A stretch of 64,000 nt of DNA from Hoyosella subflava DQS3-9A1 (lineage in GTDB: Bacteria; Actinomycetota; Actinomycetes; Mycobacteriales; Mycobacteriaceae): NCBI RefSeq assembly GCF_000214175.1, contig NC_015561.1:1-64000 (forward strand), in the 5' to 3' direction. The notes beneath the pieces were generated by a model. The model searched no databases. It had not been told where the DNA came from and was given only the letters and a program-made list of their open reading frames with translations. How positions within the stretch are numbered: position 1 is the stretch's first letter; the number at the start of each line of letters is the position of its first letter. Positions 4,185 to 63,900 of the stretch are shown piece after piece. Position numbers and translations under genes: made by a program.

Positions 4185-6254
4185 GTGCGTTACGGAACAA
4201 GAACCCACTCGATGACGCGGAAGTGGTTGATCACCGCTGCTATCGCGATGGTGGCCGCATCCGGGGCAGCACCCGCAGGGGCTCAGCCTGACACAACACC
4301 GTCTCCCAGCCCTGTGACTACAACACAGGCAACACCGGAAACCGCAGACTCGGAGGCAACCACTGCCCCGGCCCTGTCGCCGTCTGGGACGGAAGCTGAA
4401 GAGCCAGCCCGAGAAGCCCTGCGGCCTGGCAGCAACACCAGTGAAGATGCGTTAACACCCGCCCCGGAAACCGTCGACCCCGAGCGCACTACGCGCGCAC
4501 CACAAACGCCACCTAGCGAAACACCTGAGGAAACAGCACCGGACGAAGAATCCCCGAGTGTTCAAGCGACTCGTGAACCCGCTGTTACAGCAGAAGAAGC
4601 ACCCCCCTCGGTCGCAGAGGGTGAAGGCCTGCCGTACCCGGAGCGAACAGACGGCGTTGAAAGCCAGCCGATGCAGCGCTCAGCTCAAAGCCTGCCTGAA
4701 CTCCGCGGCACACCACGCTCGGAGCGCGAGCCCATCCCCGAGGGGTTCAGCAAGGAAGAAGCCGACCTTGCTGAACGGATGGAAATGGCCACTACCTCAG
4801 GTTGCCAAACATTCTGGCCCTCACCGCACCTCGTGTGCGGCGCGATCCTCGACCGCTACCTAGCGATGGGCGGCCCGAACAGTTGGCTGAGCCTGCCCAA
4901 CAGCCCCGAATACACCAACCCGGACGGAGTCGGAAAACGCAGCCAGTTCCTCAACGGATCCATCTACTGGCACCCCACCACCGGAGCCCACCCCGTCACC
5001 ATCCTCTACATGACCAAATGGGACCAGCTCGGCTGGGAAACAGGATGGCTCGGCTACCCCACAGCAGCCGAGATCCCCCACAGCCCCATCGGAAGCCAGC
5101 AAGAATTCCAAGGCGCAGGACTATTCTGGACCCAGCCAGTTGGCGTCTACGCCGTCGGCGGCGCCATCCGAACCAAATACGACAGTACCGGCGGGCCTGG
5201 CGGGCCCCTCGGCTATCCGACCACCGACGAAATTGCCGTAAACAACAAAAATGGACGGTACAACAACTTTCAAAACGGAACAATATCGTGGTCCGCAGAC
5301 ACTGGATCGCGCGTTTTATACGGGCCCATTCGTGACAGGTGGACGCAACTGGGCCGCGAAGACGGTCCTCTAGGGTACCCACTCAGCGATGAACAATCAG
5401 CAGCAAACGGTACGGCACGTTACGTAGAATTTGAAAACGGCTCTTCAATTTGGTGGACTGCTGTCACTGGTGCACACGAAATCTCGTCCGACATTCTCGC
5501 TGTGTGGCAAACTTACGGTGCACATGACGGAAACCTGGGGTACCCAGTGAGCCCTGCGGTGACCCCCCAGTCCAATGCGCGAAACTCGGCTCACGACGGG
5601 CCAGCAATTACGAAACATCAGAAGTTCGAAGGTGGAATTGTAAACCTCGCCGGAGATAGGGATGCATACGTCGGGATGTACGATCCAACACCAGACAATG
5701 TTCCGGAACCTCAAACATCCGTGACCAACAAGCTGGAACAAACACGACAACAGAATGACACCTGGCCACCAGATATCCCTAAAGATCACGATACGTCGAA
5801 GATCGTTGGCGAAGCCACTAATATCCATCATCCTCTGTACGGCACGATGGTGATCCGTCAAGGGTACTACAGTGGCGCTTGGCAAGACGGGTGGGGCCAA
5901 AACAAGGCTCAGCACTACCACCAACTGAATTATATTGACTCCATCGAGTTCGTGCTCGAGTCCCGGTATTCCGGACCACGAAGCGACACAACCTTAGCTG
6001 GCAGGGATTTCTGGGCGTACGCCACACACAGCATCTGCGAATTGACTTGGTCAGGTCGGCAATGCCAGGAGGTTGAACGACGGGTGGTACACGCAATTTA
6101 TGACCCGCTACCATGGCCGACGTACAAATTCACCCCTGGCGGAGATCCAATCGGGGTGGTCACCGCATTCTGCGGCGGCGGAACGTCACCCTTGGCTGGC
6201 ACTACGATCTGCGACCCTTGGGTTGACGTGGCTCTCCTCAACCCAACAAACTAG
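4185..6254 (+). CDS. exported LGFP-repeat protein
   Basis: 689 residues. The GTG start at 4185 is supported by AAGGGAGG 9 bases upstream. A signal peptide ends near PAGAQP at about residue 34. Residues 35-190 form a Pro/Thr/Glu-rich, probably extended spacer. Residues about 215-450 hold four or five LGFP-type repeats, recognisable by WLGYPTAAEI, GPLGYPTTDEI, GPLGYPLSDEQ and GNLGYPVSPA. LGFP repeats (PF08310) are typical of cell-envelope proteins in mycolic-acid bacteria. The C-terminal 200 residues, with two cysteine pairs, are not recognised. A strong hairpin follows the stop. It probably acts at the cell surface; the target is unknown. Confidence 0.88.
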   Translation: MRYGTRTHSMTRKWLITAAIAMVAASGAAPAGAQPDTTPSPSPVTTTQATPETADSEATTAPALSPSGTEAEEPAREALRPGSNTSEDALTPAPETVDPERTTRAPQTPPSETPEETAPDEESPSVQATREPAVTAEEAPPSVAEGEGLPYPERTDGVESQPMQRSAQSLPELRGTPRSEREPIPEGFSKEEADLAERMEMATTSGCQTFWPSPHLVCGAILDRYLAMGGPNSWLSLPNSPEYTNPDGVGKRSQFLNGSIYWHPTTGAHPVTILYMTKWDQLGWETGWLGYPTAAEIPHSPIGSQQEFQGAGLFWTQPVGVYAVGGAIRTKYDSTGGPGGPLGYPTTDEIAVNNKNGRYNNFQNGTISWSADTGSRVLYGPIRDRWTQLGREDGPLGYPLSDEQSAANGTARYVEFENGSSIWWTAVTGAHEISSDILAVWQTYGAHDGNLGYPVSPAVTPQSNARNSAHDGPAITKHQKFEGGIVNLAGDRDAYVGMYDPTPDNVPEPQTSVTNKLEQTRQQNDTWPPDIPKDHDTSKIVGEATNIHHPLYGTMVIRQGYYSGAWQDGWGQNKAQHYHQLNYIDSIEFVLESRYSGPRSDTTLAGRDFWAYATHSICELTWSGRQCQEVERRVVHAIYDPLPWPTYKFTPGGDPIGVVTAFCGGGTSPLAGTTICDPWVDVALLNPTN

Positions 6255-8305: not shown

Positions 8306-8989
8306 TCAGTGCTTGTATTTGAGGTCGCTGTTAAGTACGGAATGATCGGTAGTTGCGGCCCAGACGGCGATTTGGACACGATTCTTGGCGTTAATTTTTT
8401 TGGCGATGTTACTGACGTGTGTTTTGACGGTGCTGGGCTCGAGGTGGAGTTTTGTGGCGATAGCCTGGTTGCTGTGCCCTTGGGCGAGGTTGGCGGCGAT
8501 GTCGCGTTCACGGGGAGTGAGCGCCTGAGCGCTGTGTTCGTTTGCCTGGGCTGCGGTGGGACGGGGACGGCGACGGGCGAATTCGGCAGCCAGCCGCGGG
8601 GTGAGCGCGGGGGCGAGGGCGAGGCCGCCTGCCGCGGCAGTGAGAACTGCACTGGCAAGTTCATCGGGTCCGGTGTCTTTGAGAAGAAACCCGGCGGCGC
8701 CGAGATCGATCGCGGCGAAGAGGTATTCGTCTAGGTCAAACGTGGTCACGATGATCACACGGGGTGGTTGATCGAGGGTGAGGATCTCACGTGTCGCGGT
8801 GAGTCCGTCACCGCCGGGCATACGCACGTCCATGAGCACAACATCGGGGCGCATTGCCCGGGCGTGGTCGAGCGCGCGTTTCCCGGATTCGGCTTCCCCG
8901 ATCACACGGATGTCGGGGTGGTCGGCGAGGAACAGTGTGAAGCCTTTACGCACGGCAGGCTGATCGTCAGCGATGAGCACGGTGATCAT
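8306..8989 (-). CDS. NarL/LuxR-family response regulator
   Basis: 227 residues. A receiver domain (1-120) has the acidic pair DD at 8-9, the phospho-acceptor Asp54 in VLMDVRMPGG, the Thr in VTTFD and Lys in LLKDTG. A LuxR-type helix-turn-helix closes the protein (LTPRERDIAANLAQG, then STVKTHVSNIAKKI). The start is fixed by the 4-base ATGA overlap with the kinase stop, so earlier in-frame starts are inside the kinase gene. It should be phosphorylated by the adjacent kinase and probably controls the divergent lanthipeptide genes. NarL-type regulators (RamR) control the class III ram/amf loci of Streptomyces. Confidence 0.93.
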   Translation of the reverse strand: MITVLIADDQPAVRKGFTLFLADHPDIRVIGEAESGKRALDHARAMRPDVVLMDVRMPGGDGLTATREILTLDQPPRVIIVTTFDLDEYLFAAIDLGAAGFLLKDTGPDELASAVLTAAAGGLALAPALTPRLAAEFARRRPRPTAAQANEHSAQALTPRERDIAANLAQGHSNQAIATKLHLEPSTVKTHVSNIAKKINAKNRVQIAVWAATTDHSVLNSDLKYKH

Positions 8990-10293
8990 CCGCTGATCCT
9001 GCCTGTGGCGGGGATGGAGGCGGTGACGGTCCACCCCCCGTGGTGTCCGGGTTCGGAGGTGAGGGTCCCGCCGAGCATTTCGGCGCGTTCGCGCATCCCG
9101 GCGATACCGTAGCCGTTGCCGCCAGGTTCGGGCGTGTGGGTGCTTGCGGTGTTGGTGATCATGATGCATACACCAGCGGGAGTGCGCGTGACGGTGAGAG
9201 TGGCGGTGCTTGCGGGGGCGTGCTGCCGGATATTGGCGAGGGATTCCTGCACGATGCGGTAGCAAGACAGCTGTACAGCGTTGTCGAGACTGGTGAGGTC
9301 ACCATCAATGGTGAGCGCGGTGGTGATGCCATGCTGGCGGGCAGCCTCGGCGAGGTCAGCGAGGTGAGCGAGTGAGGGGCGAGGCTGGTCGTGGTGAGCG
9401 TCATGAAGACGCAGGATCCCTACGACCTGACGCAGGCTGGTGAGAGTGCGTTCGCCCTGGCTGATGATGTCGGTGAGCAGCTCGCGGGCCTGGCCGGGAT
9501 GGTTGTCGAAGACTTTGTCGGCGGCTCTGGCCTGAATGAGCATCCCGGCGACGTCGTGGGCGGCGACGTCATGCAGTTCACGGGCCATGTCTTCGCGCTC
9601 GCGAAGGACCGCTTCGCGGATGCGCTGTTCGCGTTCCCCGTCAAGAGCGGCGATCCGGCGGGTGCTGTCCTGTTTGAGACGCTGGTGTCGGGCGATGAGT
9701 TTGCCGGCGAGTATGAACACTCCGTAGCTGACGAGGATATTCACGGCGGGGGCGATCAGCATCTGCCCCACCTCCCCTACCTGAAGTTGTGTGTAGGATT
9801 CAGTGCTATGGGTCGCGCCCGCCCCGAGCGTGAATCCGGTGGCGAGGTCGGCGATCATCCCGGTGAGCAGCAGCCAGGCCATTCTGCTGCCGGACACGGA
9901 CGCGGCAAGCCAGGCGATCGCGAACCAGTACAGCACTGACGCGCCGAGGGAACGGTCATCGAGCACGATCATCAGCAGAACGGTCGCAGTGATCGTCGCG
10001 AGAAACATCCACTCCGGGAACCGCGTACGCAATGCGGCCATGCCGGTCATCGCTCCGATCAGGATGATCGCCAGGATCTGAGTTCCCGGTGAGGACAAAA
10101 ACCGCCTGCCCGCGTCACCGGACAGCTCCGGGATCATGGCCAGCACATACAGCAGCACACCACTGGCAATACCAGCAGCCGCTGCTGTGTAGCCCCGAAG
10201 CAGGTTGTCTGCAAGTGGATGCTGCGGGTCAGTCACAGGACCGGTGGGTGGGGGCTCCTGCGCAGTGAGCGATGCAGAGCTGGGTGTGGACAC
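8986..10293 (-). CDS. HisKA_3-type sensor histidine kinase
   Basis: 435 residues. The N-terminal half has about six membrane segments between residues 35 and 200. The dimerisation box is REDMARELHDVAAHDVAG, with phospho-acceptor His241. A HATPase domain follows with the N-box region ESLANIRQHA and the G-box GNGYGIAGMRERAEMLGG. The start is GTG. It overlaps the response-regulator start by 4 bp, so the pair is one operon. There is no large extracellular sensor, so it may sense a membrane signal or the envelope-active lanthipeptide itself (inference). It is transcribed away from the LanKC gene, with 661 bp between the two starts. Confidence 0.92.
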   Translation of the reverse strand: MSTPSSASLTAQEPPPTGPVTDPQHPLADNLLRGYTAAAAGIASGVLLYVLAMIPELSGDAGRRFLSSPGTQILAIILIGAMTGMAALRTRFPEWMFLATITATVLLMIVLDDRSLGASVLYWFAIAWLAASVSGSRMAWLLLTGMIADLATGFTLGAGATHSTESYTQLQVGEVGQMLIAPAVNILVSYGVFILAGKLIARHQRLKQDSTRRIAALDGEREQRIREAVLREREDMARELHDVAAHDVAGMLIQARAADKVFDNHPGQARELLTDIISQGERTLTSLRQVVGILRLHDAHHDQPRPSLAHLADLAEAARQHGITTALTIDGDLTSLDNAVQLSCYRIVQESLANIRQHAPASTATLTVTRTPAGVCIMITNTASTHTPEPGGNGYGIAGMRERAEMLGGTLTSEPGHHGGWTVTASIPATGRISG

Positions 10294-10954
10294 TAACGGA
10301 TACGCCTTTCACGGGTCAGTACCAGACAGATTTGCATACAACCACCGCCAGGTCCCGGCTCACCGGGCCCTGCGACCGAGTCTTCGGGGCTTCCAGAGAG
10401 TGCTGAGCTGCACGGAACCCGCTACTGCGCGGTGACTCGCATGTGCCGTGCCGTTCAAAGATCCCCCATTCGGGGGAACGCGCCCCGGCAGGGTACTGCA
10501 GCTTTCCAGCCTGAGTGTCCCCCTCTCCAAGCCCGCGTTCTGGGGGTGAACTGTCCAGAAAACCGCACTGGCCCTGGGGATAGAAGAACACCCAGAGCCA
10601 GATGATTCAGGCGGGCGGCGCCTAGCTGGTGGTGATCACGCTTAGATGGTGGTCTTCTCCCCTGAAAGGCGGAAATCACGAGTCCATCTTTCAGTGGAGC
10701 CCATTTGCGCAAGCAGGAACTCCAGCCGTTTCCACAGCCGTGTTTCAGCTGTTCACCACCATGGTCTAGGTGCTCCCCCGAATGGGGGATTCGCCAGTTT
10801 TCCACGCTGGCCGCCGCTATTGCCGAGCTGCGTCTTGATGCGTTGACTGCCCGCTAGCCCGTTCGCTGGTCTTGCTGTCCAGGTTCCATTTCAGTTCTGG
10901 AATGTGCGGGGAACGGTGCGCGCACACGAAAACGTGAAGGAGTGAGTCCCCGGG
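10294..10954. promoter_or_regulatory. divergent control region of the lanthipeptide locus
   Basis: 661 bp separate the kinase and LanKC starts. The 17-mer TCCCCCGAATGGGGGAT occurs twice in opposite orientations, at 10774-10790 and as its complement at 10461-10477. Each copy is itself a C5-N4-G5 hairpin. A further short inverted pair (CTGAAAG / CTTTCAG) lies near 10663-10693. Two identical sites about 310 bp apart, one nearer each gene, suggest binding by the response regulator and possible looping. No small precursor gene with a SxxSxxxC motif was found in this interval. A TTGACT at about 10843 could be a -35 element for LanKC, without a convincing -10. Confidence 0.5.
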
Positions 10955-13585
10955 ATGGATGCGCGGTATGCCGAGTACACGGTGGCGGGTTCCCTGTTTT
11001 ATGACTGTCCGCACGTGCAGCCCATAGCACCGGGATCACGGGGCATGCGGCTGCACGTCTCGCATGCCGTGTCGTGGCAGGACTGGCGTCAGCATCATAT
11101 GGGGCGGTGGGTGTCCTACGCGCCAGCAGAATGTGTTCTGCCCGAACAGGGCTGGAAGATTCATTGTTCCGCTACCCTCGAGAATGCGGCCGCGATGCTG
11201 GAGCGAGTCTCCCGCTACTGTGCCGAGCAGCGCATCGCGTTTAAGCACTTGCGCTCCACGACTGATCTCACTGTCGCGAACAGCAAGCAGGCCCCGAGGG
11301 CGTCGAGCGGGAAGTTTCTGACCCTCTATCCGGTCAGCGAGCAAGAGTGTGAGACCACTGCGGCAGATCTCGATGATCTGATTGGCGGGCGGGACGGGCC
11401 CTACATTCTTTCTGACGTGCGTTACCGGGAAGGCCCGGTGTATCTGCGCTACGGCGCGTTCCACTTACTGTTCACCCTCGACCCGCACACAGGCGATCCC
11501 GTCCCGGCGGTGCGTGCGCCAGACGGGACTCTGATCCCTGATCAGCGCCGCCCTGTGTTCACCCCACCGCCATGGGTGAAGATCCCCGGATTCGTCGAGC
11601 ACCAGCTCGAGGCCCTGCATGCCAGCGACGCTGATCTGCCGTACACCGTCGAGGGTGCTTTGCACTATTCCAACGGGGGCGGTGTGTACAAAGCGGCCGC
11701 CGCCAACGGCCACCGCGTAGTGCTGAAGGAAGGCCGCCCGTTCGCTGGCCTCGATCCCCGCGGCCGCGATGCCTCCGCCCGCATCCGTGACGAGCATGCA
11801 CTGCTCACCCGGTTCGCTAACGATCCCGCCATCGTCGCGGTGCTGGATCGTTTCCAGCGGTGCGGGCATGAGTTCCTGGTTCTTGAAAGGGTCACCGGAA
11901 CGTCACTGCTCTCAGAAATCACCGCCCGCAACCCCCTTGTACGGGCCCGGTACACGCGCGCAGATATCGGCACCTACCGGACCTGGGCAATGTCGATCGC
12001 CAACAGGATCGAAACCACCCTGAACAGGGTTCACCACCACAATGTGGCCTACGCAGACCTGCACCCCGGGAACGTGATCTGCCGCCCTGATGGCGGCATC
12101 ACCCTCCTCGATTTCGAATTCGCCTACGACCTGAACGCACCTCACCCCCTGCCCGCCGGCCCGCCGGGCTATACCCCGCCCGACAACCGGACTGGCGTCG
12201 CCGCCGACCGGTACGCGCTCGGCTGCCTCAAACTCGCCCTGTTCCTGCCTCTCACCAGCCTGCTCGCGCTCAGTCCATCCAAACTCGAACACCTGCTCGC
12301 TGTCGCGGCGGAAGAGTTCAGTCTCCCGTTTGCCTACCTGCAGTCAATCCGTGACCTCATCAGCCTTGACCCGCCCTTCATCCGCGCGAGCAAAAAAGCG
12401 CACGAGGCCGCCTGCCTCACGAACCGGTGGAACATCAGCACCCCCACCGCGCGAGGCTGCCTCACCAGGCTAATCAGGCACGGTATCTACGACACCGCTG
12501 ACCTGTCCCGTGCAGACCGGGTATTCCCCGGTGATATCGAACAATTCACCACCAATGGGTACAACATCGCCCACGGCGCCAGCGGCATCCTCCTGGCCGT
12601 CATGCCGCCAGAACACCTGCGGGACCCCATCCTCGACTGGATCCATACCGCAGCCACGGAAACCAGCGACACCTCGCCCGGATTCTTCGATGGCCTGGCC
12701 GGGGCCGCGCATCTGCTGCGCCGCTACCACCGCGACCACAGCGCTGACACCCTGACCGCCCGGCTAAGCCGTCTCGACTTCGAACGCTACTCCTCTCACC
12801 TCTACAACGGGCTAGCCGGGATCGGCTGCCACCTCATCGACGAAGCAGCAACACACCCAGCACCACACACCGACCGCGCTCTCGCGGATGTTCGGGAAAT
12901 CCTCGCCCACCGCGCCCACGCACTCGAGACACACCCCCACGCGGAAACCCACCCACCTGGTATCAGCGGGCTCATGCGCGGGGCCAGCGGGCAGGCCCTG
13001 TTCTGGAGCCGCCACTACGAACACACCAGCGACCCGGCCTCACTTGCCACCGCTCACGCCCTGATCACACACGATCTCACCACACTCACCCGGCGTACCG
13101 ATGGATCACTGCAAACCAGGCAAGGCAACCGGACCCTTCCCTACCTCGCCTCCGGTTCCACCGGAGTCGGCCTGGTCCTGCTTGAGCTGCTCCGCCATGA
13201 ACACCGCGACGACTACCTGACCGTGCTCGACGGCATCACCGCCGCCGCCACACCCGCCCTCATAGCCCAATCCGGGCTCTTCAACGGCCGCGCCGGGCTC
13301 CTCTACTACCTCACCGCGCTCGCCGCCACGCCATACGCTCCCCCAAGCATCCAGCAGAAGATCCGTCAGCAGCGACGGCTTCTCCAGCTTCACGCCATCC
13401 CGTACCGAACCGGCATCCATTTCCCCGGGGAACACAACCTCCGCCTCTCCACAGATCTCGCCACCGGATCAGCCGGGATCCACTACGCACTCACACCACC
13501 CGACCGAACCGCGCGGACATGGCCAGCCTTGCCACAGCCACACCTACCGCACCACGAAAACCAAAAACCTGAGCAGGTGGCATAA
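10955..13585 (+). CDS. class III lanthipeptide synthetase LanKC
   Basis: 876 residues, the normal size for LanKC. The N-terminal 200 residues correspond to the phospho-Ser/Thr lyase. A Ser/Thr kinase domain spans about 215-480, with the beta3 Lys258 (RVVLKEGRP), catalytic loop YADLHPGN (Asp368, Asn373) and metal-binding Asp386 in LLDFEF. The C-terminal third is a LanC-like cyclase (SGLFNGRAGLLYYL, LATGSAGIHYAL). It lacks the Cys-Cys-His zinc ligands, which separates class III from class IV LanL. GAAGGAG lies 12 bases before the ATG. The enzyme should phosphorylate, eliminate and cyclise Ser residues of the peptide encoded 42 bp downstream. Confidence 0.95.
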   Translation: MDARYAEYTVAGSLFYDCPHVQPIAPGSRGMRLHVSHAVSWQDWRQHHMGRWVSYAPAECVLPEQGWKIHCSATLENAAAMLERVSRYCAEQRIAFKHLRSTTDLTVANSKQAPRASSGKFLTLYPVSEQECETTAADLDDLIGGRDGPYILSDVRYREGPVYLRYGAFHLLFTLDPHTGDPVPAVRAPDGTLIPDQRRPVFTPPPWVKIPGFVEHQLEALHASDADLPYTVEGALHYSNGGGVYKAAAANGHRVVLKEGRPFAGLDPRGRDASARIRDEHALLTRFANDPAIVAVLDRFQRCGHEFLVLERVTGTSLLSEITARNPLVRARYTRADIGTYRTWAMSIANRIETTLNRVHHHNVAYADLHPGNVICRPDGGITLLDFEFAYDLNAPHPLPAGPPGYTPPDNRTGVAADRYALGCLKLALFLPLTSLLALSPSKLEHLLAVAAEEFSLPFAYLQSIRDLISLDPPFIRASKKAHEAACLTNRWNISTPTARGCLTRLIRHGIYDTADLSRADRVFPGDIEQFTTNGYNIAHGASGILLAVMPPEHLRDPILDWIHTAATETSDTSPGFFDGLAGAAHLLRRYHRDHSADTLTARLSRLDFERYSSHLYNGLAGIGCHLIDEAATHPAPHTDRALADVREILAHRAHALETHPHAETHPPGISGLMRGASGQALFWSRHYEHTSDPASLATAHALITHDLTTLTRRTDGSLQTRQGNRTLPYLASGSTGVGLVLLELLRHEHRDDYLTVLDGITAAATPALIAQSGLFNGRAGLLYYLTALAATPYAPPSIQQKIRQQRRLLQLHAIPYRTGIHFPGEHNLRLSTDLATGSAGIHYALTPPDRTARTWPALPQPHLPHHENQKPEQVA

Positions 13586-13627
13586 CCGTCAACACCAGGA
13601 ACGAACCCCCACAAGAAGGACCACACG

Positions 13628-13738
13628 ATGACACACATCCTCGCTCTCCAAGACCAGCCCACCGACACCAAACTCAGCCACGAACACGGGGAAACGCTGC
13701 TCTCCGGCTGGAGCGCACTCAGCATCGTCTACTGCTAA
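13628..13738 (+). CDS. class III lanthipeptide precursor (LanA)
   Basis: 36-codon gene with AAGAAGGA 7 bases before the ATG, 42 bp after the LanKC stop. Residues 4-8 are ILALQ, matching the ILxLQ leader box that class III synthetases recognise. The C-terminus (26-36) is SGWSALSIVYC, containing one exact Ser-x2-Ser-x3-Cys unit (Ser29, Ser32, Cys36), the labionin/lanthionine-forming motif. Cys36 is the last residue. The terminal SALSIVYC closely resembles the second ring of SapB/AmfS-type peptides, but the first ring is absent, apart from an extra Ser26 one SxxS step earlier. The leader cleavage site cannot be read. Confidence 0.93.
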   Translation: MTHILALQDQPTDTKLSHEHGETLLSGWSALSIVYC

Positions 13739-17087: not shown

Positions 17088-17663
17088 AGCTGCCCGATAA
17101 CGACCCTTGGCAGGATATCTACGCGGCATGCCTCGGCCTGCTGCCTGAAAGCCCTGACACAGACGTCCTCGGCGCAGGCTATCTGCCACTTGACCTGCGT
17201 TTCGAGGACTTCGTCACTGTCAATCGTGTCGAAGCCCAGTGCTCACTGGAGGATCTTCTTTCGCGCCTCAATGCCGCCGACCGCCTAACACCGCGGGAGC
17301 TATCCATGATCCACCTCGCCTACGGCAGTCGGGGAAGCAGCGCCATCCGTTCTGAGACGAAAGCGATGCCAGATCCGGCGTTCGCCAAGTTTGACGCAGG
17401 CCCGAACGTCGTGGTCGTTTGCTCGCCGAATAGCGTCGACGACCTGGCGTTGCTGTGGAACCTGCGCGGAGCGCACGGCGATTTCCGACCGACCGCTCCC
17501 GATAGGAGTGCCCCGCTCGGAAGCCACAATTGATGTGATCGGCAAACTCGCCAGCGAACCGCTAATCGCGCGCAACGGTATGCCTGGCTCTCGGCGTTCT
17601 TTCTCACGCCACGCGCTCGCTTCATTTGCTCGTCATGCAGCAGATGCCGCACCGACTCGCTGA
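17084..17663 (+). pseudogene. frameshifted companion of the HIRAN-nuclease
   Basis: A GTG start overlaps the preceding stop. The first frame reads 149 codons through VVVVCSPNSVDDLALLWNLR and ends at 17533. Just before, near 17487-17495, the tetranucleotide CCGA is duplicated. Removing one copy joins DFRP to LPIGVPRSEATIDVIGKLAS in the other frame, continuing to 17663. The joined protein is about 190 residues with no recognised fold, but the coding character changes frame exactly at the repeat. It is either a recent loss, a phase-variable switch, or a sequencing error. If intact it would be a partner of the nuclease. Confidence 0.55.
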
Positions 17664-17871
17664 AACGACGGGTGTGCGCGCTCGCGACGCGTGCCGGGCT
17701 CGCTTGTCCTCCTTTATCGGCCATTCGAATTTGAATGTGGTGGCTCGGGGCAGTGACGCACGTGATGCGGCGACATCCGCGAGCCCAATTCCCTCGACAG
17801 GGAGTGTCTGGCGTGCTGGCATCTTGAGCGCTGGCACCACACTTATAGGTGGTGATGATGATCAGTCCACG

Positions 17872-18390
17872 GTGAAGGTTTTCCCGGACGCAGCGGGGAG
17901 GAAAATCGTTGTCGTGACGCAAGCAATAAGTTGGCAAACCTATCAAGAGGTCGCTATCTTCCTGCTCGACCAGATTGCAGACGCTCTCGAGCTTCAGCGC
18001 GTTGAAGGAAGCCAGGAACTGATCGGAACGCGCTCAACGACGACCTGGACCGTCGATGGTAAAGGCGTTGCCGTGGACGGCGAGGGCTTCGTCATCATCG
18101 AGTGCCGCCGTTACACCACGTCGAAGCAGAAGCAAGAAGACATGGCCGCACTTGCCTACCGGATTATCGATACCGGGGCGAGCGGCGGCATCATTGTCAG
18201 TCCTTTGGGGCTGCAGGAAGGCGCGGCGAAGGTCGCGGAAGCTGAGGGAATCAAGAGCGTCCACCTTAGTGAAAACTGCACCCGCTCGGACTTCATTCTG
18301 AAGTTTCTCAACCGTGTCTTCCTCGGCGTTTCCGATACCATGACCGCCACAGACGCTGCGTCGGTGCTCATCGCCAGGAAAGCCGATTAA
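17872..18390 (+). CDS. Mrr-like restriction endonuclease
   Basis: 172 residues from a GTG at 17872; the same frame is open back to 17626, but that upstream part overlaps the preceding gene's shifted frame and looks non-native. The core has SWQTYQEVAIFLLDQIADAL, then WTVDGKGVAVDGEGFVIIECRRY, which fits the D..ExK-type beta-hairpin of PD-(D/E)XK nucleases, and YRIIDTGASGGIIVSPLGLQ, an Mrr-like alpha/beta segment. It is followed by no methyltransferase, so it is not a classical restriction-modification pair. Together with the two preceding genes it forms a likely three-gene nuclease module. Confidence 0.7.
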   Translation: MKVFPDAAGRKIVVVTQAISWQTYQEVAIFLLDQIADALELQRVEGSQELIGTRSTTTWTVDGKGVAVDGEGFVIIECRRYTTSKQKQEDMAALAYRIIDTGASGGIIVSPLGLQEGAAKVAEAEGIKSVHLSENCTRSDFILKFLNRVFLGVSDTMTATDAASVLIARKAD

Positions 18391-22714: not shown

Positions 22715-23210
22715 TCCGGCCTGGCAGAGGCTTGCCCGTCACGTGACGGATTAGCGCTGGAGGATCCAGTCAGCACCGTGGAAGACCAGCCAGTTCTGGG
22801 GAATTGCTGATAAATCGCCCTTATCATCAAATCTCCGGCGCGAGAGCCGTGAATAGAGGGGCTGCCGGTAAGGATCGTGTCACCGGCCGCAAATGAGGGT
22901 GTGGGCCTGGCATGAGACCGGACTTGCTGCATTGGTCGAACCGGATGTGAGTTCGGTGATGCGGAGGTACTTTTGGCAAGAAGACACCTCCCTGGAACCT
23001 TTCTCTCGCTGGTGGAGTTAAGGGACAACGGATCGAAAACGGCTACTGCACTTGAGGATCCGACGAGTACGAACTACCGCAAAATTGGGCGCTTGGCGGC
23101 CTCATAGCGGGCGAAAGAGGGCGCACGCAATGCCTGCACCGCCACCGCAGAATTTGTCAGTGTTCTGCTGTACGGTGCTGCACCATCAGGTCTGATTGGA
23201 GCAGAGCACT
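22715..23210. other. intergenic, nothing recognised
   Basis: About 500 bp divergent between the recombinase and the OLD gene. I see no open frame with support and no strong repeat. Promoters for both flanking genes must lie here. Confidence 0.4.
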
Positions 23211-24617
23211 ATGGGACTTATCTCGTCGCTTGAGGTCGGCGGTCTTCGGGGGTTTGCGGATTCGCAGAGGAGTGAGTTTGCGATTCCGGATGGCAAGCCC
23301 GGAAGCGGCCTCACAGTCTTGCTTGGGGCGAACAACAGCGGTAAGTCCACTGTCATTGAGGCCTTGCGTGCCGTCACCAGAAGGCAGAACTCGTCGTTCG
23401 CTGCGTCAAAGAGAAACCAGGCTTTCGGGGATAGGGTCGACCTGAAGCTGACCCTTCCGTCGGGTGTGGGAAGCCATCTTGTGTCCGTCGAGCCGTCGTC
23501 GAGCGAGACTCGCTGGGAATACGGGGGCGGTAGGGGAGACCACACATATCAGGCGATGTTCGTACAGTCCCGCCGTGGGTTCGACCCCATGTTCGGCAGG
23601 ACCGACATAATGGCCCGGCACAGTTACCTGCTCAACGAGTCGGAGCACAGGCGGCGCCCGCAGCAGCTCGACAGCATGTTCGCCTCCAGGCTCTTCAAGA
23701 TCGTGGGTGATCCCGAGGCGAAGACGAAGTTTGACGAGCTGCTTGCCAAGGTCGTCGTGCCCTGCCCGAATTGGACGATCGATCTGGCGGACAGCGACCA
23801 TTACTTCATCAAGTTCCTCCTTTCTGGAGGCGCGTCACATACAAGCGACGGCGTCGGGGAGGGAATCATCAGCCTCTTCTCCATTCTCGATGCCCTCTAC
23901 GACTCTGACGACCAAGACATCATCGTGATCGACGAACCCGAACTCTCGCTGCACCCGCAACTGCAGAAGCGACTGCGGACGGTGCTCTCGGAGCATGCAA
24001 CGACACGACAGATCATCTACACAACGCATTCGCCGTATCTGATCGACTGGAGCGACATCGAGAACGGCGCAAGGATCGCACGGGTCTACAAGAACGAGAA
24101 CGGGGCCGTGCAGATCAGACAAGCCACTCCTGAAACACTTCGGGAGGTCTGCAGGCTGGGATCGGACACCAATAATCCCCACGCCCTGGGGCTCGCAGCG
24201 AACGAGGTGTTCTTCCTGGAAGACGGGGTAATCCTCACCGAGGGCCAGGAAGACGTAGTGTTCTTCGAGAAGAAGATCGACAAGGCCCTCGGCATGCGGA
24301 TGGAAGGCTCGTTCTTCGGCTGGGGCGTCGGCGGCGCCGAGAAAATGGACATGATCATGCAGATGCTGTCGGAGTTGGGCTTCCGACGTGTTGTCGCAGT
24401 CTTCGACGGCGACAAGTCCGCTACCGCAGCGAGGATCAGAGAAGCGTTCCCGGGCTATCACATTGCGGTTCTACCTGCTGATGACATCCGCACCAAGCCG
24501 GCCAGGAAGGCAACGAGCGAAAAGCTCGGCCTCTGGCACGACAACCAGATCGACCCGCAGCTCCGTCCCAGAGTTGAGGAAATGTACAAGGGCGTGAACG
24601 AGTATCTCAGCGGCTGA
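23211..24617 (+). CDS. OLD-family ATPase-Toprim nuclease
   Basis: 468 residues from the ATG at 23211, preceded by GGAG 8 bases upstream. The N-terminal ABC-type ATPase has Walker A GANNSGKST (39-47), an ABC-signature-like region near GVGEGIISLF, Walker B DDQDIIVIDEPELSLHP and the H-loop TTHSPYLI. A Toprim domain follows from about residue 340 (ILTEGQEDVVFFEKK, then VVAVFDGDKS). This is the architecture of OLD nucleases, several of which protect against phages. It stands alone, without a Gabija-type helicase partner, so it fits class 1 OLD. Confidence 0.88.
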   Translation: MGLISSLEVGGLRGFADSQRSEFAIPDGKPGSGLTVLLGANNSGKSTVIEALRAVTRRQNSSFAASKRNQAFGDRVDLKLTLPSGVGSHLVSVEPSSSETRWEYGGGRGDHTYQAMFVQSRRGFDPMFGRTDIMARHSYLLNESEHRRRPQQLDSMFASRLFKIVGDPEAKTKFDELLAKVVVPCPNWTIDLADSDHYFIKFLLSGGASHTSDGVGEGIISLFSILDALYDSDDQDIIVIDEPELSLHPQLQKRLRTVLSEHATTRQIIYTTHSPYLIDWSDIENGARIARVYKNENGAVQIRQATPETLREVCRLGSDTNNPHALGLAANEVFFLEDGVILTEGQEDVVFFEKKIDKALGMRMEGSFFGWGVGGAEKMDMIMQMLSELGFRRVVAVFDGDKSATAARIREAFPGYHIAVLPADDIRTKPARKATSEKLGLWHDNQIDPQLRPRVEEMYKGVNEYLSG

Positions 24618-37637: not shown

Positions 37638-37767
37638 CCGTCAGCAGATCAAGTTTGGCGACATGGCTGCTGACGGGAGGCCCTAAGTCCCCGCATCGGG
37701 TGATTACCACCCAGAGCGGACCCACAGTCCGATAGCGGGGGCACTTTCGATTGTAGGTGCCCCCGCT
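37638..37767 (+). promoter_or_regulatory. structured RNA leader of the transfer operon
   Basis: Three parts can be folded by eye. CCGTCAGCAG pairs with CTGCTGACGG (37638-37676). ATCGG and CCGAT can close a domain containing the hairpins GGGTG/CACCC and GGAC/GTCC (37695-37733). AGCGGGGGCAC pairs with GTGCCCCCGCT (37734-37767), a terminator-like 11-bp stem. It lies between the XRE genes and the cutinase ATG at 37952. It resembles a riboswitch or attenuator, but I cannot match it to a known class. Confidence 0.5.
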
Positions 37768-37951
37768 GTCTGCAGGAACGCAGCAGCAAAGGAGGGCACT
37801 GATCGTGATCTCAGCGTGCTGGACGCTGGATCTCTGCATCTCCCTATTCGTCTCGGCTCACCCGCCGCAATTCCCATTTCGCGAGCCGGAAAAGACACCA
37901 AACAGAACGCGTCATGGCGATCCGGGCGCAGGAGCAGGAGAAGGATCGGAA

Positions 37952-53046: not shown

Positions 53047-54975
53047 ATGACGTCTCGAGTTCGCCGCGACCGGCCCGGCACCGGCAGTGGCAGCACGAAG
53101 GTGTTCCTGATCGTGCTCGCCGTTATCGCCACACTCTGCGTAATGAGCACCGCATACAAGCTCGGCGGGGGAGAAGCTGACTGGAACCCGCTCGGGCTGA
53201 TCGTGCTGCTGTTCCTCGGCAAAACCTCATGGCCCGCTGCCGCGACCGGCTACCTCGCCGCGGTCGGGCTCGCGATACTCGGGCTCCTCGTTGCCGCGGC
53301 GGTGATCGCCAAACACACCGGGATCGCGGAGAAAATGCGGCGCCGCCGGGTGGAGAAACGACTGGACAGTCTCGCCCGGACCTCGATGATCAATCCGCAC
53401 GACGTGCCCGAGACCGACCCCCGGTTCCAGGCCGCGACGACCCGGAAACTCGCCCCCGAAGTCCCTGACAATCACCCCGGCTTCCTCGGCGTCCCCGTGG
53501 GCACCACCGTCGTCGCGAACCGCGTCCTGCGAATGATGTGGGAATGGGTAGCACTCGCCTACGCCGGTACCCGCATGGGTAAAACAGCCGGTTTATGTGT
53601 GCCTGCGATCGTGGCAGCCCCCGGCGCGGTGATCGCCACCTCGAACAAGCCCGACATCTTCACCGACACCCAGGGAATACGCCGCCAGCACGGCACGGTG
53701 TGGCTGCTCGACCTGCAGGGCGTCGTCACCGGGAACCAGCAGCAGCGCGCACTGTTCTGGTTCAACCCGCTGCGCGGTGTCGGTGACCTGCCCACCGCCA
53801 AACACGTCATGGATTGCTTCGTCTCCGCCGCGATCGAACCCGGCTCCCGCCCCGACGCCTACTTCGACCCCGAATCCCGCGACCTCTTCGGCGCCTACAT
53901 CCTCGCCGCGGCAATGGCCGGCGGGGACCTGCTGCACGTGACCTCGTGGCTGCGCAACATCCAGTCACAAGTCGCGCCGACCATACTCGACGAAAACGGC
54001 TACCACGACCTCGCCGAATCCATGAGAGCGCGCCAGCGCATCAACTCACGCCAGCGCGACGGCTTCTACGGCATGGCCCGCCGCTACCTGACACCACTGG
54101 ACGAGCCGCGCTTCGCCGCCGCGGTGGTCCCCAACCAGCGCAAAAAAATCAGCCTCGACGAAAACGGGAAAATCACCGTCAGCGACGGTAACCACGTCCA
54201 CAACCTGCCCGAACTCAACATCGCCCGGTTCGTCAGAAGCACCGACACCATCTACGCGCTCTCCGAGGAAGGCCCCGGCAGCGCAGCCGCTATCGGCACC
54301 GCACTGATCGGTGCGGTCTTCATCGAAGCGAAACTCTACGGCCGCACCCAGCCGAACAAACGCATGCCACTGCCGCTGCTCGCCGTGCTTGACGAAGCCG
54401 CAAACGTCTGCCGCCTGCGCGAACTGCCAAAGTGGTACAGCTACTTCGGGTCACAAGGCATCAACGCGATCACCATCCTCCAATCACCCTCACAAGCAGT
54501 CGATGTGTGGGGAGAAGCAGGCGCGAAACTGCTCAGCGACGCCGCGAACCTCACCTGGTACGGCGGCAACGTCGACGACAAAAAATACCTCGGCGACCTC
54601 TCCGCCTCGATCGGGGACCACTACGTCGAAACCGAATCCATGTCCGTGTCAACCAGTCTCCGCAACGGCACCGGAGGGTCCTCACAGCGATCCTGGCAGC
54701 GCGAACGAATCATGGACGTCTCCGACCTCGAAGCGCTCCCGCGCACCCGCGCCATCGTCAAGATCGGCGGGTCAAAACCCCTGCTCGTGAAGAAAGACTT
54801 CTGGTTCGAAAGCAAACACAAACACGCCGTCACCGCCTCCAAACAGACAGCCGACACGAACGCACTGCTCCCGCCGAAACCCAACCAGCGGACGCAAACC
54901 CCCCGCACCGCTGTGGACAGCGAGTACGAAGCACTCGCCACCTCACAATTCTTCGACCACTCCCAGAAAGCCTGA
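53047..54975 (+). CDS. VirD4/TraG-type coupling protein
   Basis: 642 residues. Membrane helices lie at about 18-37 and 68-88, plus a weaker one near 50. Walker A is YAGTRMGKTAG (174-180), Walker B is PLPLLAVLDEAANVC, with the following QGINAITILQSPSQAV motif typical of TraG/VirD4. It brings the relaxase-DNA complex to the channel. The DUF4913 gene 6 bp downstream is its usual companion in actinobacterial plasmids. Confidence 0.9.
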   Translation: MTSRVRRDRPGTGSGSTKVFLIVLAVIATLCVMSTAYKLGGGEADWNPLGLIVLLFLGKTSWPAAATGYLAAVGLAILGLLVAAAVIAKHTGIAEKMRRRRVEKRLDSLARTSMINPHDVPETDPRFQAATTRKLAPEVPDNHPGFLGVPVGTTVVANRVLRMMWEWVALAYAGTRMGKTAGLCVPAIVAAPGAVIATSNKPDIFTDTQGIRRQHGTVWLLDLQGVVTGNQQQRALFWFNPLRGVGDLPTAKHVMDCFVSAAIEPGSRPDAYFDPESRDLFGAYILAAAMAGGDLLHVTSWLRNIQSQVAPTILDENGYHDLAESMRARQRINSRQRDGFYGMARRYLTPLDEPRFAAAVVPNQRKKISLDENGKITVSDGNHVHNLPELNIARFVRSTDTIYALSEEGPGSAAAIGTALIGAVFIEAKLYGRTQPNKRMPLPLLAVLDEAANVCRLRELPKWYSYFGSQGINAITILQSPSQAVDVWGEAGAKLLSDAANLTWYGGNVDDKKYLGDLSASIGDHYVETESMSVSTSLRNGTGGSSQRSWQRERIMDVSDLEALPRTRAIVKIGGSKPLLVKKDFWFESKHKHAVTASKQTADTNALLPPKPNQRTQTPRTAVDSEYEALATSQFFDHSQKA

Positions 54976-59385: not shown

Positions 59386-62300
59386 CTAGTCGTCGATACC
59401 GTGTCCGCGGTCCCGGCCGCGGTCATTGTCATGTACGCGCGAAGTGCTGGCTGAGCGCTGCGGCCCGCGTTCGGGGTCTCGGCGGCGCGCATCGAGTTCT
59501 GCTTTCATCAGCTGTGCGCGCTGTTGCGCGGCTGCGAGCTGGCGCTGCAGGTCATGTTGTTGTGTGATGGTGCTTGCTGGCTGCTGCTGACTGTGGGGAT
59601 CGAGCTGGCGCCGGGCATCGGTGATCTTGCGGTTTGTCTCGGTGAGTGCGAGGCGGAGACTTCCTGTGTCGTAGTGAGCGTAGGCAGCTGCGGCTTTGCG
59701 TGCCTGTTCGGTAGCGCGCTCTTGCCGTATCTGCGATCGGATGGTGTCCTCGCGCTGTTTCTGTTCCGGGATGAGGGTGGTTCGGCGCTGCAGCTCTTGA
59801 TGCAGGCGATGTTTGCGCTGTTGCTGCTGCACAGTCCATTCGTGTTGTCTGCGGCGCAGGGTGTCGCTGGCGGTGCGTGCGAATTCCGCGTGCTGATCGC
59901 GGTCGCGGCGAGCCCGGTTGAGCATGCCGGGTGTGGGCCGCGGCCGATCGGGGGTGAGCCCGGCCGCGGCCGCGCGGAGCTGTTCGGCGCGGCGACTGGC
60001 CGCGTCGTGTTCGTGTGTGAGTTGTTCGATCCGGGTGTCGAGAGTGCCGCGCTGGCGGCGGGCGAGTCTGCCCAGCTGGTCACGCTGGCGCTGCAGCTCG
60101 GTGATCTGGTGGCGCAGCTGGGTGGCGTGTTCGAGCGCCGACTGGGTGCGGGCTTCGGCTTCGTCGTAGCGCTGCCATTGGTGCTGGCGCTCGGTGAGGG
60201 CCTCAACGAGCGCGGCGGCTTTCTGTGCGTCAGCGGCGTGCTGGTGCGCTTCCGCCGCGTGTGCTGAGGGGAATGGGGCGGCTGGTTTCGCGATTTCGGC
60301 TTTGAGTTCGGCGTCGCTGTAGAGGCGTTCCCGGTGTGCGCGGATCGCGTCGTAGAGCTCGCGGGTTTCTGCGGTGTTTTTGTCGGTGGTGAGCCGGTGG
60401 TAGCGGCGGCGCATGATGGCGGCGTATTCGGCCAGCCCGATGTCAGTGCCGGGGTGCCGGGGTGGCAGCGGCGCCGGTCCGGCGTGTCCGGCTGGCGCGG
60501 TGGTGGTGGTGTCGAGGCGGTGGCGTACCACGGCGGCGATGTCGCCGGCGGTGGCGAGACCGCGTGTGTGGATGGCGGCGCTGAGTGCAGCGGCGGTGTT
60601 GATGCCTGCGTCGTGGAGCTCGGCGAGGCGTGCTTTCAGGCGCGTGTAGCTTTCCGGTGACTCCTCGCGCATGGTCGCGGCGATCGCGGACGGCACTGCG
60701 GTGTCGATGAGGTGCTCGAGGTATGCGTCGCGCAGCATGACCTGTGCGGTGGTGTAGGCGTTGAGTGCGCGTTCGGGGTTGTCGGCTTCTTGCAGCGCTG
60801 CGCGCAGCTGTTCGGTGGCAGAGAGTTCAGCGGCGTCCGCGGCGAGGATGCGCCGCAGTCCTTCGGTTCCAGGGGAGACCTGGGCGTGTGTGGCGAGCCG
60901 GTTGTCGGGGGCGTTGCGGATGTGCTGGCCCTCGGTGTCGACGTCGAGCGGCTCGTCGGTGATGACCCATGCGTGGTTCTCGCCGCGGCCGCGGGTGAGA
61001 CCGACGTACGCGGACTGGCGTGATGCGCTGCCTGGGACGGTGAGGTAATGCCCGGTGTCGACGGTGAGCCCCTGGCCGCGGTGCACGGTCGAGGCGTAGC
61101 CAAGCTCGACGGATTGGCGCACATAGCCGGCGGGGAGGGTGACCGAGCCGCGGTGCTCGGTGTGGCGCACGGTCAGTGCGCCGTCCGCGTGTACTTGCTC
61201 GATGGTCCAGAGGTCCCCGTTGAGGACTCGTGAGCCGGGCCGGATACCGCCTTTGGTGCGCAGGTCGCGGTCGTTGTCGCGGGTGACGATACGGTCGCCG
61301 CGGCCTGCGTCGAGTTCATCGGCGAGTGTGACAGTGGTGGTGGCGTCTGCGCGGCGGGTGTTGCGGTGGTGGTCCTGGATTCGTTCGTTGAGTTCCCGTG
61401 TCAGCGCGACGGTGTCGGTCATGATGATCGAGGTCAGTCCGCGCTGAGTGTCGTGCAGGTACGCGTGCACGACCTCGTCGAGGAGGCTGTCCCCGTCTCC
61501 GCCGTGCAGCCAGCCTCGTTGTTCGAACATGGTGATGGCCTCAGGTTTCCCGGACCGCAGGGCGAGCGAGTTGACCGCTTGCTGCTGGTCGTCACCGAAG
61601 CGCACCACGGTGGTGAGTTGCGGGGCGTGGGTGTGGGTGGCGAGCAGCCGCAGGGTGCCGCTGGTCTCGACCGCGTCGAGCTGGGCTGGGTCACCGAGCA
61701 GCCGTACGACGGCACCTGTTCGCTCGGCGATCTCGCGCAGCGCGTCGAGGTCGTGCAGTGAGGTCATCGCGGCTTCGTCGACGAGCAGCATCGTTTCTGG
61801 TGTGATGTCGCGGGTCAGTGTCCCGGCGGCGACACCGTCGATCCGGCCGCGCCACGGGTAGGTGAGCGAGGCGACGGTGCTGGCGCCGGTGCCGATTTCT
61901 TCGCCGAGTGTGGTGGCGGCAGCCGCTGAGGGCGCGAGCGCGATGACGTCACGGCCGCTGGCGTTCCACGCGTCCACGACAGCTTTCATGGCGGTGGTTT
62001 TACCCGCGCCTGCGGCTCCGGTGGCGACGGCGACGCGCGCGCCGGAAAGACAGAAGTGTTCCGCGAGCGCACGCTGTCCCGGGTTCGGCGCCCTGTTCAT
62101 CGCGTCGATTGCGTGCACAAGGTCAGCACGTGTGGTGAACGCGGTGGTCGGTTCGCCACACGCGCCGATGAGGCGGGCTTCGGCATCGAGGACCGCAGTG
62201 CTGGTGTGCAGTTGTTCGCCGTGCCGGGTGAGTTGCGAGCTTCCGTCAGCGCGGCGCAGCACGTCGGGCACCGGGACTGTTTCGGGTGGTTCGAGGGTGA

Positions 62301-63831
62301 CGGATTCGCGGTAGAGAGAGCGCGTCACGACCGCGTCGATCATGGCGCGGCGCTGCTCGATGGTGGGGAAGACAACGCTGGCGAGTTGCGCTTCCACCGC
62401 GCCCTCGATGTGGGGCCGCGCCCACGTGGCGCGTTTCTCCGACACGGCAGCGATGGCGAGCGCGGCCTCCGCATCCACACCCCGGAAGGCCCGCGCGCCC
62501 AGCTTCTGCTCGGGCCGCAGCGCACGGTTGAGCATCGCTTCAACGCTGGCCTCACCGCCGAGTATGGCTGCGGCCTGGCGGCGCCACTGCTGCTGGTGCT
62601 GGGCGAGAGATTTAGCTTCGTTTTTGCCCTGCCGGGTTTCCAGGTTCGCCTGCTGCAGGAGCCGGAACTCTGTTTCCCGGCCGGGTGAGTAGCCGTGCTG
62701 GCGACGGTAGTCGCGCACGAGCTCATCGCGGCGGTCCTGGATCATCTGCGCGCGTGTCGACCACGACTGGCACAGCCGCTCATCTATCCCGGCGACCTCG
62801 ATTACCGGCTGCTTGCCGCGCCCGGTGAATCGCTCGACCGTGCTGATGCCCAGTGATCGTCTGAGGTTGTCGATCACGGCGACGTTGTACCGCTGCGACG
62901 CGGCCACGCCGTGTTTGAACACCGCGCGGGTGTCGAGCGCGGACCACGTCCCATCGACACCTTGCACCTTCACTGACACAGCGCAGTGGGTGTGCAGGTT
63001 GGGATCACCCGCGCGGGTGTCGTAGTGATCGTAGGCGGCGATGATCAGCCCGCGGGTGTTGATCTGCCGCTCGCTGCGGTCCCCGCGCCGGGTGAAGGCG
63101 GCGTTATCTTCCAGGAACCCGATCGCGTCAGCGACCGCGTCATGGTGTGCCTTCTCCACCGCTCGGCGTGCGCTCTCGTCGCCGAGTGCCCACAGCACGC
63201 TGACGGATTTCGCGGGCGTGAACGTCAGGTCAAACCCCGCTACCGGGTAGCGCTTCTTCTTCGCCGCTTCCGCGGTGATCCAGGAGGACAGCTCCGCGCT
63301 GCTGACTGGCTGGCGGCCGTGCTGCTTCTCGAAAACGGGGAGCGCAGCCTGGGCGTGGAGGTGCTGACGTTCGTCTTTCGTGGGCGCGCGGCCGTTGTCT
63401 TCGGTGAAGCGCTGCTCCGCGGCTGTGAGCGTGTCCCGCAGCACGGAGACGTTCTTGAACTCAGGGAACTTGCGGCCCAGCCTGGTCTGCCGGACTTCCT
63501 CGCGTGCCGCGCGCTGCTGAGCGCGTCTCGTCACAGCATCGGCATGCACCGCCGTTGTGATGGCCTCGGTGTTGGGATGCAGCCCTTCCCCGAACAATGC
63601 CTTCATCTGGGCTTCGGTGACGGTGCCGGACACTAGTCGCTCGTCGCGGCGCTGACCGCTGTACTCCGCCAGCGAGCGCAGCCCAGACCCTGCCCACCGT
63701 CCGGGTGGTGTCCCGGCCGCGTGGTAGTAGCTGGCCAGCGACTGGCCTGCCTCGCGCTGCACGTCCTGGGTCGCCACACTGCGCGACAGATACGAGTATC
63801 CGTCGCCCGCGTGGAGGACATGCACGGTCAT
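59386..63831 (-). CDS. traA: MobF-family relaxase-helicase (TraA/TrwC-like)
   Basis: 1481 residues from the ATG at 63831 (a GTG one codon earlier is possible). The N-terminal relaxase domain has AYDHYDTRAGDPNLHTHCAV, the three-histidine metal site, with Tyr residues near the start (GYSYLSR) as candidate nucleophiles. The C-terminal half is a superfamily 1 helicase with Walker A ATGAAGAGKTTA, Walker B LLVDEAAMTS and later ASTVHRGQGLTVD. The last 300 residues are coiled, rich in Arg/Gln. It nicks oriT, unwinds and leads the strand into the recipient. Confidence 0.93.
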   Translation of the reverse strand: MTVHVLHAGDGYSYLSRSVATQDVQREAGQSLASYYHAAGTPPGRWAGSGLRSLAEYSGQRRDERLVSGTVTEAQMKALFGEGLHPNTEAITTAVHADAVTRRAQQRAAREEVRQTRLGRKFPEFKNVSVLRDTLTAAEQRFTEDNGRAPTKDERQHLHAQAALPVFEKQHGRQPVSSAELSSWITAEAAKKKRYPVAGFDLTFTPAKSVSVLWALGDESARRAVEKAHHDAVADAIGFLEDNAAFTRRGDRSERQINTRGLIIAAYDHYDTRAGDPNLHTHCAVSVKVQGVDGTWSALDTRAVFKHGVAASQRYNVAVIDNLRRSLGISTVERFTGRGKQPVIEVAGIDERLCQSWSTRAQMIQDRRDELVRDYRRQHGYSPGRETEFRLLQQANLETRQGKNEAKSLAQHQQQWRRQAAAILGGEASVEAMLNRALRPEQKLGARAFRGVDAEAALAIAAVSEKRATWARPHIEGAVEAQLASVVFPTIEQRRAMIDAVVTRSLYRESVTLEPPETVPVPDVLRRADGSSQLTRHGEQLHTSTAVLDAEARLIGACGEPTTAFTTRADLVHAIDAMNRAPNPGQRALAEHFCLSGARVAVATGAAGAGKTTAMKAVVDAWNASGRDVIALAPSAAAATTLGEEIGTGASTVASLTYPWRGRIDGVAAGTLTRDITPETMLLVDEAAMTSLHDLDALREIAERTGAVVRLLGDPAQLDAVETSGTLRLLATHTHAPQLTTVVRFGDDQQQAVNSLALRSGKPEAITMFEQRGWLHGGDGDSLLDEVVHAYLHDTQRGLTSIIMTDTVALTRELNERIQDHHRNTRRADATTTVTLADELDAGRGDRIVTRDNDRDLRTKGGIRPGSRVLNGDLWTIEQVHADGALTVRHTEHRGSVTLPAGYVRQSVELGYASTVHRGQGLTVDTGHYLTVPGSASRQSAYVGLTRGRGENHAWVITDEPLDVDTEGQHIRNAPDNRLATHAQVSPGTEGLRRILAADAAELSATEQLRAALQEADNPERALNAYTTAQVMLRDAYLEHLIDTAVPSAIAATMREESPESYTRLKARLAELHDAGINTAAALSAAIHTRGLATAGDIAAVVRHRLDTTTTAPAGHAGPAPLPPRHPGTDIGLAEYAAIMRRRYHRLTTDKNTAETRELYDAIRAHRERLYSDAELKAEIAKPAAPFPSAHAAEAHQHAADAQKAAALVEALTERQHQWQRYDEAEARTQSALEHATQLRHQITELQRQRDQLGRLARRQRGTLDTRIEQLTHEHDAASRRAEQLRAAAAGLTPDRPRPTPGMLNRARRDRDQHAEFARTASDTLRRRQHEWTVQQQQRKHRLHQELQRRTTLIPEQKQREDTIRSQIRQERATEQARKAAAAYAHYDTGSLRLALTETNRKITDARRQLDPHSQQQPASTITQQHDLQRQLAAAQQRAQLMKAELDARRRDPERGPQRSASTSRVHDNDRGRDRGHGIDD

Positions 63832-63900
63832 CACGCGAGTGATCTTACGGCGCTTCCCCTAAAGTCTGAATTTCAGCCAGAGGTGTGAAGGAACAAAGTG

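Follow-up and report, generated by a model that had tools for sequence, protein, structure and literature searches.

The DNA analysed here, called the window, comprises the first 64,000 nucleotides of contig NC_015561.1 of Hoyosella subflava DQS3-9A1. It contains a locus for a class III lanthipeptide, in which the gene for a lanthionine synthetase (LanKC) is followed by a short gene for a precursor peptide with a single ring motif. An earlier note on this DNA had described these two genes. It mentioned neither the kinase and regulator pair (8306-10293) that is divergent from lanKC, nor a palindrome that occurs twice between the two operons. The features of the locus, with what they rest on, are as follows.

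8306..8989, minus strand: NarL/LuxR-type response regulator, 227 aa, ATG at 8989 (Pfam Response_reg and GerE)
8986..10293, minus strand: membrane histidine kinase, divergent from lanKC (Pfam HisKA_3 and HATPase_c, i.e. PF07730 and PF02518)
10461..10477, no strand: palindrome copy 1, ATCCCCCATTCGGGGGA, proposed operator, about 168 bp before the kinase start codon
10774..10790, no strand: palindrome copy 2, inverted, proposed operator, about 165 bp before the lanKC start codon
10955..13585, plus strand: LanKC, class III lanthionine synthetase (lyase-kinase-cyclase), 876 aa (NF038151 match)
13614..13620, plus strand: ribosome-binding site of the precursor, AGAAGGA, ending 7 bases ahead of the ATG (sequence)
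13628..13738, plus strand: one-ring precursor peptide (lanA), 36 aa (open reading frame (ORF), relatives and shuffle control)
13637..13651, plus strand: leader box ILALQ, residues 4-8 (sequence)
13712..13735, plus strand: ring motif S29-x2-S32-x3-C36 (SALSIVYC), the only such motif, Cys36 being the last residue (sequence)

LanKC scored 863.7 bits with the class III model NF038151 (cut-off 575), and only 366.7 bits with the class IV model, which is below the cut-off of 650. It contained the Pfam domains RamC_N, Pkinase and LANC_like, and had relatives in the PDB (9wop, 8sao and 9ugq SalKC). Eight catalytic lyase residues of ThurKC are named in the accessible part of PMC10604976. They were mapped by alignment onto PDB 9wop, where all eight letters agree with the numbering, and through this alignment all eight positions (8/8) were found to be identical in the window's LanKC. 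No Cys or His was found near the cyclase sites where zinc ligands were looked for, as the earlier note had stated, these positions being approximate since the site numbering is one or two off. The score of the synthetase, its lyase residues, the cyclase without zinc ligands and the adjoining precursor, which has a leader box and a ring motif, are all those of a class III system, and the assignment as a class III lanthipeptide locus with a three-domain LanKC is confirmed as a prediction from sequence.

The precursor gene begins 42 bp past lanKC and encodes MTHILALQDQPTDTKLSHEHGETLLSGWSALSIVYC. Its coordinates, ribosome site, ILxLQ box and single Ser-x2-Ser-x3-Cys motif ending in Cys36 were as first described. 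No model of Pfam (E<=0.001) or NCBIfam (E<=0.1) matched it. The 106,784-bp contig, searched on both strands, had one instance of an ATG-started ORF with a ribosome site, a leader box and a C-terminal ring. When the 900 bp 3' of lanKC were dinucleotide-shuffled 4000 times and read on the same strand, no such precursor ORF arose. Therefore, the precursor ORF exceeds chance expectation.

The kinase has four hydrophobic segments (Kyte-Doolittle). The regulator gene, whose start was picked from sequence (the Pfam scan used the longer ORF 8306-9265), shares 4 nt with the end of the kinase gene. A kinase of the HisKA_3 type with several predicted transmembrane segments and a LuxR-type regulator, both linked to a peptide locus, are also the arrangement of ComQXPA. 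The 661-bp intergenic region between the divergent kinase and lanKC operons holds the palindrome twice, as exact inverse copies. The inner 16-mer of the palindrome had only these two sites in the 4.86-Mb genome with up to one mismatch, and the reversed-pattern control had 0. The ComA box of comQXPA is itself a palindrome, of the form 6-4-6.

Relatives of LanKC and the number of rings

Named genomes gave 186 LanKC relatives, of which the best 80 were kept. These were 37-41% identical to the window's LanKC, and Micromonospora, Amycolatopsis, Streptomyces and Actinoplanes contributed many of them. A precursor candidate, mostly with two ring motifs, lay 3' of LanKC in 75 of these best 80. A sample of 401 genomes of the host family, including the own genome, contained 19 that matched the LanKC model at E<=1e-100, of which 14 passed the cut-off. 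The nearest LanKCs (42-47% identity) were those of nine loci from a single genus, probably Rhodococcus, nine of whose 28 genomes have one; four of these loci lie on contigs over 6 Mb. The one-ring precursor was intact in eight of the nine, 135-270 bp 3' of lanKC and with a similar leader box. In the ninth, G268 (L128 / L105), it was frameshifted, with a one-base length difference from a relative, and LanKC was open. The conserved precursor that the earlier note expected at the same position in related loci was indeed found.

The nine precursors ended in one of two ways. Group A (G106, G120, G145, G178 and the frameshifted G268) ended in ISSLSFFC or ISSLSFFCL. Group B (G188, G236, G245 and G282) ended in SWSALSVALC and similar sequences, close to SGWSALSIVYC of the window.

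We counted rings by pattern in 132 LanKC loci, possible near-copies included, from which L121 (540 aa) was dropped as too short. The remaining 131 had one ring in 17 cases, two in 92, three in 9 and none found in 13; L039 was moved by hand from the one-ring to the two-ring class after the pattern count. In a quick tree of 60 of the 131 rows, which gave a long-branch warning that included the window's branch, the window and the nine loci formed one clade (Shimodaira-Hasegawa-like approximate likelihood ratio test, SH-aLRT, 99), in which all rows had one ring save the frameshifted one. One-ring rows were also found on other branches of the LanKC tree. Thus, one ring is not exceptional, since it is usual in the own clade and seen on other LanKC branches, and the view that it sets this locus apart had to be given up. 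We likewise rejected the idea that the single ring is an oddity of the plasmid, since it is common to the own LanKC clade.

Single-labionin class III peptides have also been published. As far as the accessible parts of PMC10604976 and PMC8960859 go, the thuringins (PMC10604976), bacinapeptins and paenithopeptins of Bacillota resemble the present peptide in being class III products with one labionin each. They differ from it in that their enzymes are distant, thuringin A1 has 11 dehydrations and M16B proteases are known. For Rhodococcus, the accessible text reports 136 class III lanthipeptide clusters in 616 genomes (PMC11433410) and, in R. erythropolis, a 'lanthipeptide-class-iii, unidentified' cluster in all five strains compared (PMC10819586). 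These clusters probably correspond to the relatives found here. The same text, with figures and supplements outside its scope, gives no ring number, kinase linkage, precursor variability or function.

Other arrangements were seen elsewhere in the collection. Two loci of a second genus of the family (L113 and L114) have one-ring precursors in tandem, three to four in number and mostly of the form ..SSYSEHHC.. plus a tail, 3' of a LanKC-like gene. Another four (L117, L119, L120 and L122) have a short ORF 5' of a LanKC-like gene. The product of this ORF ends in ..SSNGC or ..SSSGC and may belong to a further family of precursors, whose gene order would be inverted.

The linked kinase and its variation

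Relatives of the kinase adjoin lanKC in four of the nine nearest genomes (G188, G236, G245 and G282), with 35-43% identity over 362-405 aa. The nine genomes contain 15 strong relatives (236-307 bits) in total, 7 of them adjoining lanKC, while the next-best matches in the host genome and two congeners reached 127.7, 117.5 and 127.4 bits, over residues 168-429. Homologues of the regulator, 47% identical to that of the window, were present near lanKC in G245 and G188. At E<=1e-55, the kinase was found in 10 of the 28 genomes of the nearest genus, namely in 9/9 with LanKC and in 1/19 without it (hypergeometric probability 1.4e-6, kinship ignored). The one genome without LanKC, G208, has kept the kinase at the same locus between the same flanking genes, next to scraps of LanKC (22 residues, 73%, E 4e-5) and of a second kinase (24 residues, 67%, E 2e-6); in the 19.9 kb around it, neither a match to the regulator nor a precursor was found. 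Because of these scraps beside a retained kinase, the locus looks like a deletion scar in which lanKC has been nearly all lost. The co-occurrence with LanKC and this apparent scar are good sequence evidence that the kinase belongs to the lanthipeptide module.

A kinase tied to lanKC alone was considered and rejected, as 8/9 of the LanKC genomes hold a copy elsewhere. In the three contexts examined, the unlinked copies have flanks that we take by eye to resemble purB/HIT and purC. At L174, L175 and L176, an unlinked kinase-regulator pair stands beside a predicted secreted protein, and the regulators are 53-60% identical to that of the window, above the lanKC-proximal ones (47%).

We compared how far the parts of the related loci have diverged. 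In G245, G188 and G236, LanKC is 90-95% identical and the precursor 57-63%; in the four intact loci of group A, the corresponding values are 85-91% and 97-100%. The sensors of the linked kinases are divergent as well. For HK1 (three pairs among G245, G188 and G236), identity is 76-88% in the sensor and 96-98% in the kinase half, and for HK2 (one pair, G245 and G188) it is 71% and 89%, respectively. By comparison, the sensors of the unlinked paralogues in the same three genomes are 94-97% identical, and those of group A, where the only kinase is unlinked (five genomes, ten pairs), 93-98%. At the DNA level, G245 and G188 are 93-99% identical over LanKC, 60-75% around the precursor, 74-76% across most of the HK2 sensor and 86-97% over HK1. 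ComP, which has the same two domains (PF07730 and PF02518), is described in the accessible part of PMC4008528 as variable in its N-terminal part and conserved in its cytoplasmic part. By analogy, these values suggest that the precursor and the linked sensor of these three genomes may vary together as at pherotype loci such as comQXPA. The window's own alleles lack a close relative, and the co-divergence data cover the relatives, not the plasmid copy.

The carrier plasmid

Two further features of the window belong to its carrier:

53047..54975, plus strand: type IV coupling protein (TraG-D_C and T4SS-DNA_transf)
59386..63834, minus strand: TrwC-type relaxase/helicase (domain matches)

The carrier also encodes an M23/SLT protein and a ParA-like ATPase. 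The relaxase, the coupling protein and the M23/SLT protein support the description of the contig as a putative conjugative plasmid. Its DNA from 30001 to 55000 matched 25 plasmid records, 22 of them from Prescottella, with a query cover of at most 4% among the matches listed. LanKC-like genes were found in 77 of 72,556 plasmid records at E 1e-5 (20 from Streptomyces). Query coverage reached at least 80% in 24 of the 77, and the remainder include other kinase-cyclase proteins. In view of these 77 records, LanKC-like genes on plasmids are not rare, and the plasmid location of lanKC is notable, not singular.

Other cargo includes an LGFP-repeat protein (4185-6254) and a cutinase-domain protein (37757-39571). 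Two genes of about 580 aa at the far end of the contig, taken from their size for a transporter pair, were rejected as such because they match the AAA/OLD-TOPRIM and UvrD families. This AAA/OLD-TOPRIM gene, followed by the UvrD helicase (C2:102654-106160, L126, beyond the window on the same contig), forms a Gabija-like defence pair. The contig also has an HsdR-type gene (C2:87289-90561) and a DndB-like gene (C2:96186-97469). Within 11 kb past the lanthipeptide locus, the window has an AAA/OLD-type ATPase with a weak TOPRIM match (23196-24617) and a weak match, below cut-off, to an Mrr-type endonuclease (17626-18390).

Proposed working and rival readings

We propose, from comparison of sequences, that the locus is a compact, self-regulated module for a one-ring class III lanthipeptide, and that its most likely job is signalling, the linked kinase acting as receptor in a comQXPA-like circuit with LanKC as the modifying enzyme. 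We put the probability of this reading at about 0.55. A regulated, possibly signalling peptide is suggested because the locus has a sensor-kinase/regulator pair and a twin palindrome. In the proposed circuit, a signal would be sensed by the membrane kinase, and the NarL-type regulator would bind the twin palindromes and turn on both operons. LanKC would bind the ILALQ leader, then phosphorylate and eliminate Ser29 and Ser32, and perhaps Ser26, after which Cys36 would close one ring, labionin or lanthionine. A protease and an exporter encoded elsewhere would release a short hydrophobic peptide, and this peptide would be recognised by the linked kinase. The comQXPA locus of Bacillus resembles this arrangement in having a modifying enzyme, a peptide, a multi-transmembrane kinase with a variable N-terminal half (PMC4008528, accessible part) and a response regulator. 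It differs in that its peptide is modified by an isoprenyl transferase and its genes are all on one strand, and we claim no homology of enzyme or peptide.

Several observations weigh against this proposal. The co-divergence was seen in three genomes that are close relatives of one another, their pairs being non-independent, and comparison of G282 with the others showed no clear excess (LanKC 72-73%, precursor 57-71%). Because the synonymous sites of the precursor are near saturation (0.98) between G245 and G188, a segment has probably been exchanged there, and the sensor may be a passenger. An unlinked kinase can also diverge: that of G106 is 45-46% identical to those of G245 and G188, most flanking genes being 93-96% and the regulator 71-73% identical. 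The kinase is not adjacent to lanKC in 5/9 of the related genomes, and the gene calls of the linked loci G282 and G236 contain no adjoining regulator. The palindrome core was missing from the nine related lanKC loci, each searched whole, and in seven of them the palindromes listed upstream are unlike that of the window, so that conservation of the palindrome among relatives was rejected. Neither was a palindrome found that is common to lanKC of group A and its unlinked kinase. A scan for sigma-70-like promoters found 0, compared with 0.9 in shuffles. With the core missing in relatives and no promoter detected, the role of the palindrome as operator for both operons is one that we infer from sequence. 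Finally, none of the 101 matches to the ATP-binding cassette (ABC) ATPase family (150 of 180 candidates scored) was on the two small contigs, which leaves export unexplained.

We think it somewhat less likely that the two-component system merely controls production in response to an outside cue and that the one-ring peptide is itself antimicrobial or surface-active. The enzyme, the precursor, the regulator and the palindrome are all accommodated in this way without a receptor role, and the ram/amf class III clusters also have an adjoining regulator gene (PMC13380574, accessible part). A divergence of the sensor that is restricted to linked kinases and goes with the precursor is not predicted by an outside cue itself, although exchange of a linked segment would produce it. 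For an antimicrobial, the small contigs showed no ABC ATPase, in a search that did not extend to other immunity genes.

We regard a morphogen like SapB or AmfS, which was the reading of the earlier note, as improbable, having found no specific evidence for it. The ramAB and amfAB genes encode an ABC exporter pair, and no ABC exporter was found on the small contigs. The resemblance to ram/amf lies in the order of LanKC and a short precursor, the leader box, the C-terminal S-x2-S-x3-C, whose sequence SALSIVYC is similar to that of ring two in the SapB-type precursors among the relatives (e.g. SSLSVTTC), and the response regulator in the locus (PMC13380574). However, SapB and AmfS have two lanthionine units according to the accessible part of the same paper, whereas the window has one ring, no second ring was found in its clade, and a full kinase/regulator pair is present.

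Even less probable is a lipolanthine-like product, in which decarboxylation of the C-terminal Cys would lead to an avionin ring and the N terminus would be acylated. The Cys decarboxylase of lipolanthines is a LanD-type flavoprotein encoded in the cluster. The final position of Cys36 would fit, and lipolanthines are known from Nocardia, with class III-type synthetases (PMC10435860, accessible part), but a residue follows the Cys in 3/8 intact relatives, and PF02441 matched a single ORF in the genome, which is chromosomal and, at 427 aa, CoaBC-like by size. Avionin formation is therefore unlikely for want of a dedicated flavoprotein. That the locus is a decayed cluster retained by chance on the plasmid, with no product, is the least probable of all: one relative does have a frameshifted precursor and very little of lanKC is left in G208, but LanKC, precursor, kinase and regulator of the window are all open and the palindrome pair is exact.

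The interpretation given in the earlier note is thus partly supported. The open-access literature, in the titles and abstract openings among the matches listed and with supplements outside its scope, contained no description of this family, of its kinase linkage or of a class III pheromone. The one-ring family offers short single-ring substrates for studies of LanKC. More tentatively, one-ring peptides and linked kinases may form matched, exchangeable allele pairs (pherotypes) of a LanKC-made pheromone system in Mycobacteriaceae-like actinobacteria, one cassette of which would lie on a plasmid with transfer genes. If so, plasmid transfer would give the recipient a new signal together with its receptor. 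If the one-ring peptide activates its own kinase, lanthionine chemistry would serve a private language like that of comQXPA, and the plasmid would carry one dialect of it.

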